64,000 nucleotides of DNA. It comes from Methanococcus maripaludis C5 (lineage in GTDB: Archaea > AGJL01 > Methanococci > Methanococcales > Methanococcaceae). Made by a program: the position numbers and the translations under genes. This document shows, in pieces, positions 2,606 through 7,024 of this stretch. Positions within the stretch are counted from its first letter, which is position 1, and each line of letters begins with the position of its first letter. The notes under the pieces are model-generated. The model did no database searches. It had not been told where the DNA came from and saw only the letters and a program-made list of their open reading frames with translations. The DNA is taken from contig NC_009135.1 of the NCBI RefSeq assembly GCF_000016125.1, positions 1,240,001-1,304,000 on the forward strand, given 5' to 3'.

Positions 2606-3493
2606 TCATTTCTTATTATTCATAACTCGTAAATACTCTTTTTTTCTTGATTCCTTGTTTGAATGAACGTACCCGGAAGTAGTGTTTAAATTTGAATGAC
2701 CCATTATTTTTGATAAAACAATCAAATTCATTTCATCTTCACAGGCTAACGTTCCAAAAGTATGCCTGAAAACGTGAGGGGTAACGTCAAAAGGAATTTT
2801 ATCCTTAGTAACTTCTTTTAAATATTCTCTAAATTTATCAATTGCGTAATTTGTAACCTTTTTACCCTGTTCAGTTACAAAAAAGCAGTTTGTTTTTAAA
2901 TTTAAATTTTCTCGGTATGCAATATACTTTTTAAGATGATTTAAAAGCTCGTTATCGATAAATACATATCTATCTTTACCGCCTTTTCCATCTCGAATAT
3001 ATATTGATCGGTCTTCTAAATCCACGTCATTAAAAAGTATATTTTGAAATTCTGATATCCTAACACCAGTTTTTAAAAGAAACAACGTGTAAACGTAATA
3101 ATCATAGTTCATTACTTTTGCTAACACAGTTGCCACTTGTTTTTCACTTAAATTTATTCTTTCCTTTTTTTCAAACTTGAGAGTTTTTACAAAGGTTTTC
3201 ACTGGATTTTTAAATAAAAACTGGTGTTCCACCGCCCATTCATAAAATCGATTAACATCATTTAATCTTTTGATTTTAGTGTTTTTATTTACGGCTCTTC
3301 CGTCTCCGGTCTTGTTATATCCATTATAGAAGTTTATTGCATCTTCTATTGTGATATTTTCCCAGGTTTTATTTTCATCAAAATACCGCATAAATGCTTT
3401 TAGACCGGATTTATAGTACTTTACGGTATTTTGACTATGGCCCGAATGAAATTTTAAAAATTTTTCAACGAGTTTTTCTGAAGATTCATCCAT
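2606..3493 (-). CDS. Tyrosine recombinase (XerC/D-like integrase)
   Basis: This is a 295-residue site-specific recombinase. A SAM-like core-binding domain (about 8-95) is followed by a catalytic domain (about 108-290). The active-site set is visible: R145 (TGVRISEF), a lysine in the GKGGKDR loop (about 170-173), H240-x-x-R243 (TPHVFRHTFG), H266 (MGHSN) and the nucleophile Y275 (SGYVHS). It starts with ATG after GTGA, 8 bases past the stop of the upstream gene at 3502, so the two are probably one operon. It could serve a mobile element or resolve or invert local DNA. It could also be a cellular XerA-type enzyme, but the unusual partner gene and neighbouring small RNA favour an element-derived origin. 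Confidence 0.9.
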   Translation of the reverse strand: MDESSEKLVEKFLKFHSGHSQNTVKYYKSGLKAFMRYFDENKTWENITIEDAINFYNGYNKTGDGRAVNKNTKIKRLNDVNRFYEWAVEHQFLFKNPVKTFVKTLKFEKKERINLSEKQVATVLAKVMNYDYYVYTLFLLKTGVRISEFQNILFNDVDLEDRSIYIRDGKGGKDRYVFIDNELLNHLKKYIAYRENLNLKTNCFFVTEQGKKVTNYAIDKFREYLKEVTKDKIPFDVTPHVFRHTFGTLACEDEMNLIVLSKIMGHSNLNTTSGYVHSNKESRKKEYLRVMNNKK

Positions 3494-3501
3494 GATATCA
3501 C

Positions 3502-4050
3502 TTAATTTCTAGTAATTATTTCATAGTCTTCGCCCATTGGTAACATTAAATCCCTAAGTCTGAAATATACTTTACCTTCTTCCACCCTTTGCTCCACAGT
3601 AGCCCCAAATTCCCTATGATTTGCTAAAATATACTTAAAAAGATTTATTTTACGATCATCATTTGAATAATTCAATACAACGAGAATTTCATCCCAAGCA
3701 GTCCAGATATCTTCATCCTTACTTCTTAAATAATCCTTAATTTTAACATACATATCTTGAATTTCAGTATCTGTATAAATAGAAACTAAATAATCAGACA
3801 AATCTTGTAAAGCAGTTGTAACCTTATCGTTTGATTCATTTGAAGTGAATTGAACATTTTCCAAAAGCGATATTATTTTATCCAATTTTGTATCGGTACT
3901 TTCGTTACCTTTTTCATAAATTTTATCAACCATATTCATACAAAATTTTGCATAAGAGCCGACACTTGAGAAACCCTTGTCTTTTGCCATCTCTTGATAC
4001 TTTTTACGTTCACTATCATCAGTACAATATACTTGCAAAAGTACAGCCAA
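3502..4050 (-). CDS. Integrase-linked protein with possible ribbon-helix-helix N-terminus, function unknown
   Basis: This protein of about 182 residues is encoded directly upstream of the recombinase. Its first 40 residues (VYCTDDSERKKYQEMAKDKG then SVGSYAKFCMNMVD) have the strand-helix-helix pattern of small MobC/RHH-type DNA binders. The middle and C-terminal parts are acidic and helical and I do not recognise them. I chose a TTG start at 4050 because GGGGTGG lies 5 bases before it. A GTG at 4059 in the same frame sits inside that ribosome-binding site. A role as accessory DNA-binding factor for the recombinase is inferred from the N-terminus and the operon only. Confidence 0.7.
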   Translation of the reverse strand: MAVLLQVYCTDDSERKKYQEMAKDKGFSSVGSYAKFCMNMVDKIYEKGNESTDTKLDKIISLLENVQFTSNESNDKVTTALQDLSDYLVSIYTDTEIQDMYVKIKDYLRSKDEDIWTAWDEILVVLNYSNDDRKINLFKYILANHREFGATVEQRVEEGKVYFRLRDLMLPMGEDYEIITRN

Positions 4051-4108
4051 AAAAACCACCCCTTTATATACTAAATACCGTTTAATATATTGGATGAAAT
4101 GAATATTT

Positions 4109-4135: not shown

Positions 4136-4225
4136 GACTCGATGATGATTGTCATCCCTGCTGACTTTAATTTGTTATATTAGTTGCAAATTAAAGAAAT
4201 GATGAATACAGGGTTCCTGAGAGTT
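4136..4225 (+). ncRNA. Box C/D guide RNA candidate with a hairpin between D' and C'
   Basis: All four boxes are present in order. Box C is ATGATGA at 4142-4148. A 12-base guide follows (4149-4160, TTGTCATCCCTG), then box D' CTGA at 4161-4164, box C' ATGATGA at 4199-4205, an 11-base guide (4206-4216, ATACAGGGTTC) and box D CTGA at 4217-4220. A terminal stem pairs GACTC (4136-4140) with GAGTT (4221-4225). The C-to-D' distance of 12 matches archaeal C/D RNAs, which direct 2'-O-methylation with fibrillarin, Nop5 and L7Ae. The D'-C' spacer is 34 bases instead of a few. It forms a perfect 10-bp stem (CTTTAATTTG with CAAATTAAAG) around a 12-base loop. Predicted targets contain CAGGGATGACAA and GAACCCTGTAT; I could not identify them. 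Confidence 0.6.
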
Positions 4226-4228
4226 GCT

Positions 4229-5593
4229 CTATTTTCTACCCCATTCATCATCAAATCGAATAATATCATCTTCTTCCAAGTATTCTCCGATTTGAATTTC
4301 AATGACTTCTAAAGGCACCATCCCGGGATTTTCAAGTCTGTGTTTGAACCCACCGTTTACAAAAGTGCTTTCACCATTGCTAACAAAATACTCTTCATTT
4401 TCAACCGTCACTTTTGCCATTCCTTTTACAACCACCCAGTGTTCACTCCTGTGATGATGTAACTGGCTACTGAGTCTTTTTTTAGGATTTACAGTTATTC
4501 TTTTTATTTTATAAAAAAATCCTTCCTCTAAAACCGTATATGAACCCCATGGTCGATAAACAGTCTGGTGAAATTGCGTTCTTTCATCTTCCATAGATTT
4601 TAATTTGGATACTATATTCTTAACACTTTGAGAACTTCCTTTTTTGCAGATCATTAGTGCATCTTTGGTATCAACCACGATACAATCATCAATATCTGAA
4701 AGTGCAACCATTTTTCCAGTTGGAGAATAAACCAAATTATTTTTTGAATTGATTGCTATGTTTGACTTTTCAATAATATTTCCAGACTCGTCTTTTTCAA
4801 ACTCATCGTAAATTGCATCAAAACTTCCAAGATCGCTCCATGAAACATTTAAAGGAACTACTGCAACATTTTTAGATTTTTCCATTAAACCATAATCTAT
4901 TGAAATATCAAGAACATTTTCATAAATTTCATCAATATCTTCAGATTCAAACGCAGTATATATGTCGTTAGAGTATTTTTTAACTTCTTCTACGAATAAA
5001 TCCGAATTAAATAAAAACATTCCGCTATTCCAAAGATATCCTTTTTTAATATACTCTTTTGCTGTTTTTTCGTCGGGTTTTTCTTTAAATTCCAGTGCTT
5101 TGTTACCGATTTCAAAACTTTCTCCAGGCATTATATATCCATAGCCCGTGTGGGGAGTTTTTGGAACTATGCCATACGTTACAAGATTATTTTTTGCCAG
5201 ACCTTTTGATTTATTTACGGTATCTACAAAAATTTCTTCGTTTCCAATTAAATGATCAGAGGGGAGTACAAGAACATCCTCGTTATTTCCGGCACTTTTT
5301 ACAGCATAATATATTGCAGGAAGCGTATTCTTTCCATTAGGTTCTATAAGTACATTATTTTCATTAAAATTGATCCCTAATTCTTCTATTTGCATTAAAA
5401 CTAAAAATTTATGTTTTTCGTTTGTAACTATTAATACGTCGTCAGGTTTTGCCAGATTTAAACTTCTTTCAAAAGTTTTTTGGAAAAGCGATTCTCCAAG
5501 CTGTTTTAATTTTATGAATTGCTTTGGAAAATATTCCCTACTCATTGGCCATAGCCTAGTTCCACTTCCACCTGCAAGAATTACGACTTTCAT
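4229..5593 (-). CDS. manC: Mannose-1-phosphate guanylyltransferase / mannose-6-phosphate isomerase
   Basis: This 454-residue bifunctional enzyme of the ManC/AlgA type makes GDP-mannose from mannose-1-phosphate and GTP, and may also interconvert fructose-6-P and mannose-6-P. The nucleotidyltransferase domain (about 1-290) opens with GGSGTRLWPMSREYFPKQF. The C-terminal cupin domain (about 345-454) carries RPWGSY and a metal-binding QLHHHRSEHWVVV block. The length is normal for the fused family. The start is ATG after GGGGAT. The gene stands alone on the minus strand, but its product feeds gmd and the mannosyltransferases of the glycan locus 4-5 kb to the right. Its stop lies 4 bases from the 3' end of the C/D RNA candidate. 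Confidence 0.93.
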   Translation of the reverse strand: MKVVILAGGSGTRLWPMSREYFPKQFIKLKQLGESLFQKTFERSLNLAKPDDVLIVTNEKHKFLVLMQIEELGINFNENNVLIEPNGKNTLPAIYYAVKSAGNNEDVLVLPSDHLIGNEEIFVDTVNKSKGLAKNNLVTYGIVPKTPHTGYGYIMPGESFEIGNKALEFKEKPDEKTAKEYIKKGYLWNSGMFLFNSDLFVEEVKKYSNDIYTAFESEDIDEIYENVLDISIDYGLMEKSKNVAVVPLNVSWSDLGSFDAIYDEFEKDESGNIIEKSNIAINSKNNLVYSPTGKMVALSDIDDCIVVDTKDALMICKKGSSQSVKNIVSKLKSMEDERTQFHQTVYRPWGSYTVLEEGFFYKIKRITVNPKKRLSSQLHHHRSEHWVVVKGMAKVTVENEEYFVSNGESTFVNGGFKHRLENPGMVPLEVIEIQIGEYLEEDDIIRFDDEWGRK

Positions 5594-5650: not shown

Positions 5651-7024
5651 TTATTTTACCATTGATCCAACAATCACGTTGTCTTTTACACGGAGCACTT
5701 TTACTTTAACACGTTTTCCAATCAATTTATTAACTTCATGTTTATAATCGATTATCTGGATTACTCTGTTTTTTGATGCACCGATAACTTCCCCATTAAC
5801 CCGTCCATCCATTAAAAGGGTTACTGAAATCGTTTCGTTCAATTTAAAAGGACATGGCAACCTTTTCCGGCTGTGACTTCCGAAAAATCCGTGTAAAGGA
5901 ACCTCTAAATCCAAGTTTATTCCATCTTTAAGATATTCTTTATGATAAACATCCAAAAGATTGTAAAACTTTGGAAAATCCCAAACTCTCATTTTTGGAA
6001 TTTTTCTTCCAAACTGGTAAGTTAAACATAACTGCGGGCCGACAATCGGATTTTTCTTGTTTGTTATGGGGTTTATCGTAGTTTGTGGTGTTTTTTGATC
6101 CAATTCAACTGCAAAATCGAGCACTTTTTTAAATTCTTCGTCATTGTAATGTGGAAGTAGAAGTGGTGCAATCAAAAGATGAATTTTGGAATTTTTTATG
6201 TACTTCGCAATTTCTAAAATTTTTTCGATATCGTATTTTTTGCTTCCTGAGAGCCCTTTTGAGAACTTTTCATCGATTGCATTAATTGAAAGATTAATTC
6301 TGTGAAGTCCTGCCCCTTCCAAGTCATCGATCAGCTTTTCAGTTAAATTAACTCCGTTTGTCTGAATTGAAACTATTCCTTTGTTTTTATAGTTTATCTC
6401 GTTTAAATTTTGAACTAAATCTGGAAGTGGATAATACAATGAAGGCTCCCCCTGTCCATCTAGGTGTGCTTCAAGCTTTTTATAGCCTTTAAAATCTGCA
6501 ATTTTTTCGTATTCGGAAACTAAATAATCCATATCAACGTAATAGTCGTTTTTTCGGGATTTTGAGTGAATTCCTTCATCAACAGAACAAAAAGGGCAGT
6601 TAATATTACATCCGCTAAGCCCCCTTACCTGAATTACATTTGTACCCCTATCAATCAGCCCAAATGCGGTGTGCCCGATTAAAGGCGTTGGTTCTGTAAT
6701 ATAATAAGTTCTCCGGTTTGTTGTTTTATTCAAAAGTCCTTCTGAAATGCTTTGAGACATTTTATTCAATATTCCTGTCTTTAATGAACCTGTAAGCACC
6801 TGTGCAGACTCAGAATTGTCATTTACAAAATCTTTGAAAGTTAAAATTCCGTTTTCAAGAGATACATTATAATTCATTAAAACGCTTACTTCGTAAGTTT
6901 GGTTTATTTCGAGAACTAGAGTATTTTCATTCAATATTGAATTGGTAATCATCTTAAATTGATTTAAATCAAAAATCCAACAATTTTCATTCCATATATT
7001 ATTTTTATTTGCATTTCTCGTCAC
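5651..7024 (-). CDS. Radical SAM protein with C-terminal TRAM-like domain
   Basis: This 457-residue protein has a radical SAM [4Fe-4S] motif C139-x3-C143-x2-C146 (GCNINCPFCSVDEG) followed by a typical partial TIM barrel with DGQGEPSLY and SIQTNG strands. The last 55 residues (GRVNGEVIGASKNRV to the end) look like a TRAM RNA-binding beta barrel, as in MiaB/MTTase and TrmA-type RNA-modifying enzymes. It belongs to a family of uncharacterised archaeal Fe-S oxidoreductases (COG2100 type, from memory). The fusion suggests modification of RNA or of an RNA-bound protein, which is inference. The start is GTG with GGTGT four bases before it. Confidence 0.8.
   Translation of the reverse strand: MTRNANKNNIWNENCWIFDLNQFKMITNSILNENTLVLEINQTYEVSVLMNYNVSLENGILTFKDFVNDNSESAQVLTGSLKTGILNKMSQSISEGLLNKTTNRRTYYITEPTPLIGHTAFGLIDRGTNVIQVRGLSGCNINCPFCSVDEGIHSKSRKNDYYVDMDYLVSEYEKIADFKGYKKLEAHLDGQGEPSLYYPLPDLVQNLNEINYKNKGIVSIQTNGVNLTEKLIDDLEGAGLHRINLSINAIDEKFSKGLSGSKKYDIEKILEIAKYIKNSKIHLLIAPLLLPHYNDEEFKKVLDFAVELDQKTPQTTINPITNKKNPIVGPQLCLTYQFGRKIPKMRVWDFPKFYNLLDVYHKEYLKDGINLDLEVPLHGFFGSHSRKRLPCPFKLNETISVTLLMDGRVNGEVIGASKNRVIQIIDYKHEVNKLIGKRVKVKVLRVKDNVIVGSMVK

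Follow-up and report, generated by a model that had tools for sequence, protein, structure and literature searches.

The window analyzed here is the whole stretch of 64,000 nucleotides at positions 1,240,001 to 1,304,000 of the Methanococcus maripaludis C5 chromosome (G000:C1:1240001-1304000). The genome, labeled G000, has 1,789,046 bases in two contigs, with 1,780,761 bases in the chromosome. At window positions 4136-4225, flanked by two genes of the opposite strand (3502-4059 and 4229-5593), we found the layout GACTC-G-ATGATGA-12 nt-CTGA-34 nt-ATGATGA-11 nt-CTGA-GAGTT, with the following features.

4136..4140, + strand: terminal stem, 5' half, GACTC (sequence, RNAfold minimum free energy structure), then the 3-nt bulge G-A-U of a canonical K-turn
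4142..4148, + strand: box C, ATGATGA (sequence; unchanged in 6/6 other orthologues of the genus)
4149..4160, + strand: D' guide TTGTCATCCCTG, 12 nt (12/12 Watson-Crick pairs with 23S 2484-2495; guide/target co-change; Rfam sR55)
4161..4164, + strand: box D', CTGA (sequence)
4165..4198, + strand: D'-C' spacer, 34 nt (sequence)
4165..4174, + strand: 5' arm of the D'-C' hairpin, CTTTAATTTG (sequence, RNAfold, shuffles)
4175..4186, + strand: loop of the D'-C' hairpin (sequence, RNAfold)
4187..4196, + strand: 3' arm of the D'-C' hairpin, CAAATTAAAG (sequence, RNAfold, shuffles), then AA at 4197-4198
4199..4205, + strand: box C', ATGATGA (sequence)
4206..4216, + strand: D guide ATACAGGGTTC, 11 nt (best 23S duplex at 2457-2467, helix 88 5' strand, bulged)
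4217..4220, + strand: box D, CTGA (sequence)
4221..4225, + strand: terminal stem, 3' half, GAGTT (sequence, RNAfold)

The RUGAUGA C and C' boxes and the CUGA D and D' boxes stand in the order of archaeal C/D RNAs, and the distances from C to D' (12 nt) and from C' to D (11 nt) fall within the 10-12 nt rule (PMC3608112). The ends pair by four Watson-Crick pairs and one G-U pair and, together with the 3-nt bulge, complete a C/D K-turn (GACUC-GAU-GA ... CUGA-GAGUU). Both the terminal and the internal stem are present in the minimum free energy structure of the whole RNA. Re-reading the sequence confirmed every figure given in the initial annotation: four exact boxes, spacings of 12 and 11 nt, the GACTC/GAGTT ends, the 34-nt spacer and the perfect 10-bp stem. 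A T-rich tract lies 3' of the sRNA, and T-runs occur likewise in the orthologues.

The downstream neighbor (4229-5593, - strand) is a gene of the GDP-mannose-pyrophosphorylase/mannose-6-phosphate-isomerase type (Pfam NTP_transferase and MannoseP_isomer), located between the sRNA and a radical-SAM gene at 5651-7024. It was probably inserted in G000, because the sRNA and the radical-SAM gene are directly adjacent in G002, G003 and G004. On the upstream side are a tyrosine recombinase and a small ORF without a Pfam match (2606-3493 and 3502-4059, - strand); this pair has the same place in G004, is absent there in G002 and G003, and is possibly a mobile unit beside the sRNA gene. GCTCGATGATGATTGTCATC recurs in G004 at C1:626480-626504, where no D' box follows it; this second copy seems to be the 5' half of the sRNA in decayed or partial form.

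The D' guide and its 23S rRNA target

All 12 nt of the D' guide are complementary to 23S 2484-2495, and none of 60 shuffled guides equalled 12/12 in a search of 16S, 23S and 36 tRNAs. In the Rfam archaeal LSU model the matched region forms the 3' side of the CCCUG/CAGGG pairing (helix 88), and the five-nucleotide rule predicts G2488 as the methylation target. In the alignment with E. coli 23S, G2488 corresponds to C2422 and C2460 to C2394; the E. coli annotation begins 3 nt early, going by A2451, and the numbering was set accordingly.

We observed that guide and target change together. The rRNA of G005 and G006 has CAGAG, and their guide has CTCT (GGG to GAG in the rRNA, CCC to CTC in the guide); in the distant genome G044 the rRNA CCGGG is accompanied by the guide CCCGG. 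Such concerted changes are strong evidence that the pairing is real.

The survival of the boxes in close relatives could be followed through the genus, where all four are kept in each of the six other genomes. Outside the genus, orthologues with the same D' guide were found in sister genera (G008, G010, G013, G018, G019, G021 and contigs L061-L063, L069 and L071) and in a Thermococci contig (L066). The C box and D' guide of sR55 of Pyrococcus (Rfam RF01307; guide UGUCAUCCCUGCUGA) are nearly identical to those of the RNA at 4136-4225; therefore, the two share the 23S helix 88 target. On the other hand, the sR55 model has 65 positions compared to 90 nt here, the D guide differs, and the match shows no D'-C' hairpin. 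With 24.1 bits (E 0.0002-0.00045) against a gathering score of 35, the RNA stays outside formal sR55 membership. In yeast, snR48 methylates G2791 and G2793 of 25S helix 88 (PMC5389607), the same helix as the predicted Gm2488; unlike the RNA at 4136-4225, this eukaryotic snoRNA has a degenerate D' box and modifies two nucleotides.

That no Rfam family is reached at the gathering score might suggest boxes arising by chance in an AT-rich intergenic region, with no gene at 4136-4225. Across 36 genomes of the phylum, however, the four-box pattern with a long D'-C' gap occurs 44 times and its reversed control never, which argues against chance, as do the orthologues, the guide/target co-change and the synteny; we attach next to no probability to this explanation. 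The reading as a box C/D guide RNA, made initially from the boxes, is now backed by the 12/12 target in 23S, the co-change, the orthologues of the genus and the relationship to sR55.

As judged from these comparisons, the RNA is very likely a box C/D sRNA, the Methanococcus orthologue of sR55 type, guiding methylation of G2488 and having its C'/D' motif closed by a stem throughout the genus. The locus would encode a stand-alone sRNA that is presumably transcribed; L7Ae, whose gene we found in G000, would bind both kinks, and Nop5-fibrillarin would then assemble there. Pairing of the D' guide with 23S 2484-2495 would direct 2'-O-methylation of G2488 in helix 88.

The D guide and the opposite strand of helix 88

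For the D guide, ATACAGGGTTC, we found no contiguous target above shuffled guides in 16S, 23S and the 36 tRNAs; a tRNA match was dropped because it lay on the antisense strand. With bulges allowed, the best 23S duplex fell at 2457-2467 in the 5' strand of helix 88 and comprised 7 contiguous pairs besides a bulged C. The D guides of the genus read ATACAGGGTTN or are ACACAGATA-like, and among more than 200 windows the 5' strand of helix 88 ranked first as a partner in G000 and G003, second in G005, third in G002, fourth in G004 and eleventh in G006.

For the sister-genus D guide GACCTGGGGTAG the best partner is CTACCCCGGG, which lies just 3' of the first target (G010, G013), so that the RNA is there an ordinary double guide. 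The C'-D guide of Methanococcus would have lost this ancestral neighboring target (23S 2501-2510), which is still matched in the sister genera, and would now form at most an imperfect duplex with the opposite strand of helix 88.

The initial annotation had suggested a possible placement of the two guides on either side of one rRNA helix and set 9 or more paired bases as the threshold for a target. The placement agrees with our results: in helix 88 the D' guide pairs with the 3' strand, and the D guide pairs best with the 5' strand. The extent of pairing agrees for the D' guide (12/12 in 23S) but not for the D guide, whose 7 contiguous pairs and bulged C fall below nine. Pairing of the D guide with the 5' strand is thus partially supported as a potential. 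Methylation by the D guide at helix 88 is unlikely, since the duplexes have 6-7 contiguous pairs in a shifting register; a clamp or a relic is as good a reading.

We also considered that both guides act on helix 88: on the 3' strand the D' guide would methylate G2488, and on the 5' strand the D guide would act as a clamp or methylate C2461/C2462, beside the E-site nucleotide C2460 (E. coli C2394), so that the RNA would serve as an rRNA folding chaperone. The 5' strand is indeed the best or near-best D-guide partner (ranks 1-4 in five genomes, 11 in G006), CCCUG and CAGGG are paired in the Rfam model, and in G005, where the helix has CUCUG, the D guide follows with CAGA. Still, the target is bulged, with 6-7 contiguous pairs in a register that depends on lineage, and the scan for contiguous pairs did not single it out (null fraction 0.17). 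Moreover, the 5'-strand match follows in part from the 5-nt complementarity between the two guides. We consider joint action on helix 88 improbable, at roughly one chance in a handful.

The D'-C' hairpin in orthologous and sibling RNAs

The spacer is 34, 34, 34, 47, 53, 53 and 55 nt long in the seven genomes of the genus and about 3-8 nt in the orthologues outside it (sister genera and the Thermococci contig). Because the sister genera and the Thermococci contig have the same D' guide with short spacers, the D' half is the ancient part of the RNA and the long spacer a derived trait of the genus. Spacer sequences have little in common between G000/G002/G004, G003 and G001/G005/G006, and yet each folds back from the boxes.

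Compared alone with 1000 dinucleotide shuffles, the spacer gave p values of 0.001 for G000, <0.001 for G004 and G003, 0.005 for G001 and 0.004 for G005; the hairpin was not above shuffles in G002 (p 0.14, one U-U mismatch) or G006 (p 0.12). Within G001/G005/G006, two pairs change on both sides in a compensatory manner and 95% of cells pair compared to 34-41% for slid partners, a covariation that, with three sequences, was reached by 66 of 500 column shuffles. The initial claim that a hairpin replaces the short spacer is upheld by the short spacers of sister genera, by the low p values in 5/7 genomes and by recurrence in other RNAs. A short D'-C' loop would have been swapped, at the level of the genus, for a hairpin of variable sequence. 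By closing C'/D' as stem I, this hairpin would make the motif a K-turn or near K-turn instead of a K-loop.

In principle, the flanking helix decides between K-turn and K-loop for an archaeal C'/D' motif (PMC8413462). Here the stem begins at the first base after CTGA, so that a helix adjoins the tandem sheared G.A pairs. Four nucleotides (AAAU) are left unpaired before the C' GA here and also in G003, one more than the canonical 3. The "full kink-turn" of the initial annotation is therefore accurate for the stem, which abuts the D' box exactly, but not for the C' bulge; a full K-turn at this C'/D' motif is plausible but not ideal. Relative to the archaeal K-loop C'/D' motif (Nolivos 2005, as cited in PMC3608112), boxes and guide geometry are alike, while a stem stands in place of the loop.

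Pattern scans of G000, keeping only matches with a D box and terminal pairing (for L097 the D box was taken as the CTGA after GATCTG), gave seven C/D RNAs: the RNA at 4136-4225, L093, L095, L096, L097, L099 and L100. The same number was found by RNA-seq in M. maripaludis C5 (PMC4644070); the RNA at 4136-4225 is probably one of these seven, already counted. A D'-C' stem is present in four of the seven, namely in the RNA at 4136-4225 (10 bp) and in the three listed below (L096, 11 of 12 bp; L099, 7 bp; L095, 4 bp, a length that does not allow significance by itself in the shuffle test), while the three other siblings retain K-loops.

C1:675081-675138: L095, D'-C' stem, C' box TGAAGA
C1:729036-729108: L096, D'-C' stem, C' box TGAAGA
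C1:984371-984434: L099, D'-C' stem, C' box TGAAGA

In all three, exactly 3 nt separate the stem from the C' GA, the spacing of a canonical K-turn. Their C' box reads TGAAGA, and in some orthologues TGACGA, instead of TGATGA, the U facing the D' U being replaced by A. Thermophile relatives have the same guides mostly with short spacers; the L096 family is an exception, with stems in another genus too (e.g. CTGAGATGTATACATTAATATATCTCAG in G013). The f2 family has a CC/GG mini-stem. The family of L097 (guide TGTTATCCCCGG), hairpin-less in G000, has an apparent 6-bp D'-C' stem, TTGGGG CTTC CCTTAA, in a sister genome (G010:C1:748955-749016), apparently a further independent gain. Among 25 other archaeal genomes, a search for long-spacer C/D RNAs gave three pattern matches, none a clear C/D RNA.

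The siblings also have 23S matches for their D' guides: 11 nt to G1984 for L096, 12 nt to G2510 for L097, 11 nt to C1995 for L100 and 10 nt to G1771 for L095. By eye, L095 also has an 8-nt match that would presumably place a methyl group at 16S E. coli G1494. PMC4644070 names 16S G1494 as an M. maripaludis site. The D guide of L099 matches 11 nt in the anticodon region of the intron-bearing tRNA-Met(CAU), with Cm34 predicted. L099, with its 7-bp stem, may resemble haloarchaeal sR-tMet, a likeness that concerns L099 and not the RNA at 4136-4225. Cm34 is known in an M. maripaludis tRNA-Met, assigned to the initiator (PMC7668247).

Meaning of a stem-closed C'/D' motif

Loop 9 of L7Ae has been linked to K-loop binding (PMC8413462), and the L7Ae of G000 retains the archaeal loop-9 residues LEV. 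Because these residues are kept and three sibling RNAs keep their K-loops, the stem is an option and not a need. The hairpin as an adaptation to mesophily or a response to lost K-loop binding was rejected as the sole cause, given the LEV residues and the stems of the L096 family in another genus (including G013, possibly a thermophile).

Most likely, the stem stabilises the C'/D' kink, freeing it from loop-specific contacts. The hairpin might instead be a merely tolerated insertion, with the C'/D' motif still a K-loop and any AT-rich self-complementary filler sufficient. This would suit the sequence, loop and length (34-55 nt) of the spacer, all unconstrained across species, the mismatch tolerated in G002 and the bulge of 4 nt rather than 3. 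It does not account well for pairing that recurs beside the boxes with unrelated sequences in four RNA families, with compensatory changes, nor for the exact K-turn start on both stem sides in three families; we therefore hold mere tolerance to be unlikely. The same structural change was gained repeatedly in separate RNA families.

The RNA at 4136-4225 is, then, of a known kind, with a recurrent variant of the C'/D' motif. In the literature C'/D' is described as a K-loop and an RNA with two K-turns has been called non-natural (PMC3608112). In the openly accessible main texts that we searched, stem-closed C'/D' motifs recurring in Methanococcus are not described, and a term search of the main text of PMC4644070 returned no mention of D'-C' hairpins.

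The dispute over mono- versus di-sRNPs hinges on the type of sRNA, one with an internal loop or one with two K-turns (PMC3608112), and RNAs with both kinks stem-closed have so far been studied in an artificial two-stranded form. We suggest, as a long shot, that natural Methanococcus C/D sRNAs with both kinks closed by stems may form mono-sRNPs instead of di-sRNPs, and that the second guide of the RNA at 4136-4225 may clamp the opposite strand of helix 88 without methylating it. One tractable mesophilic archaeon offers four natural stem-bearing RNAs and, within the same cell, K-loop siblings that can serve as controls; the question of mono- versus di-sRNPs is therefore open to study with physiological RNAs.
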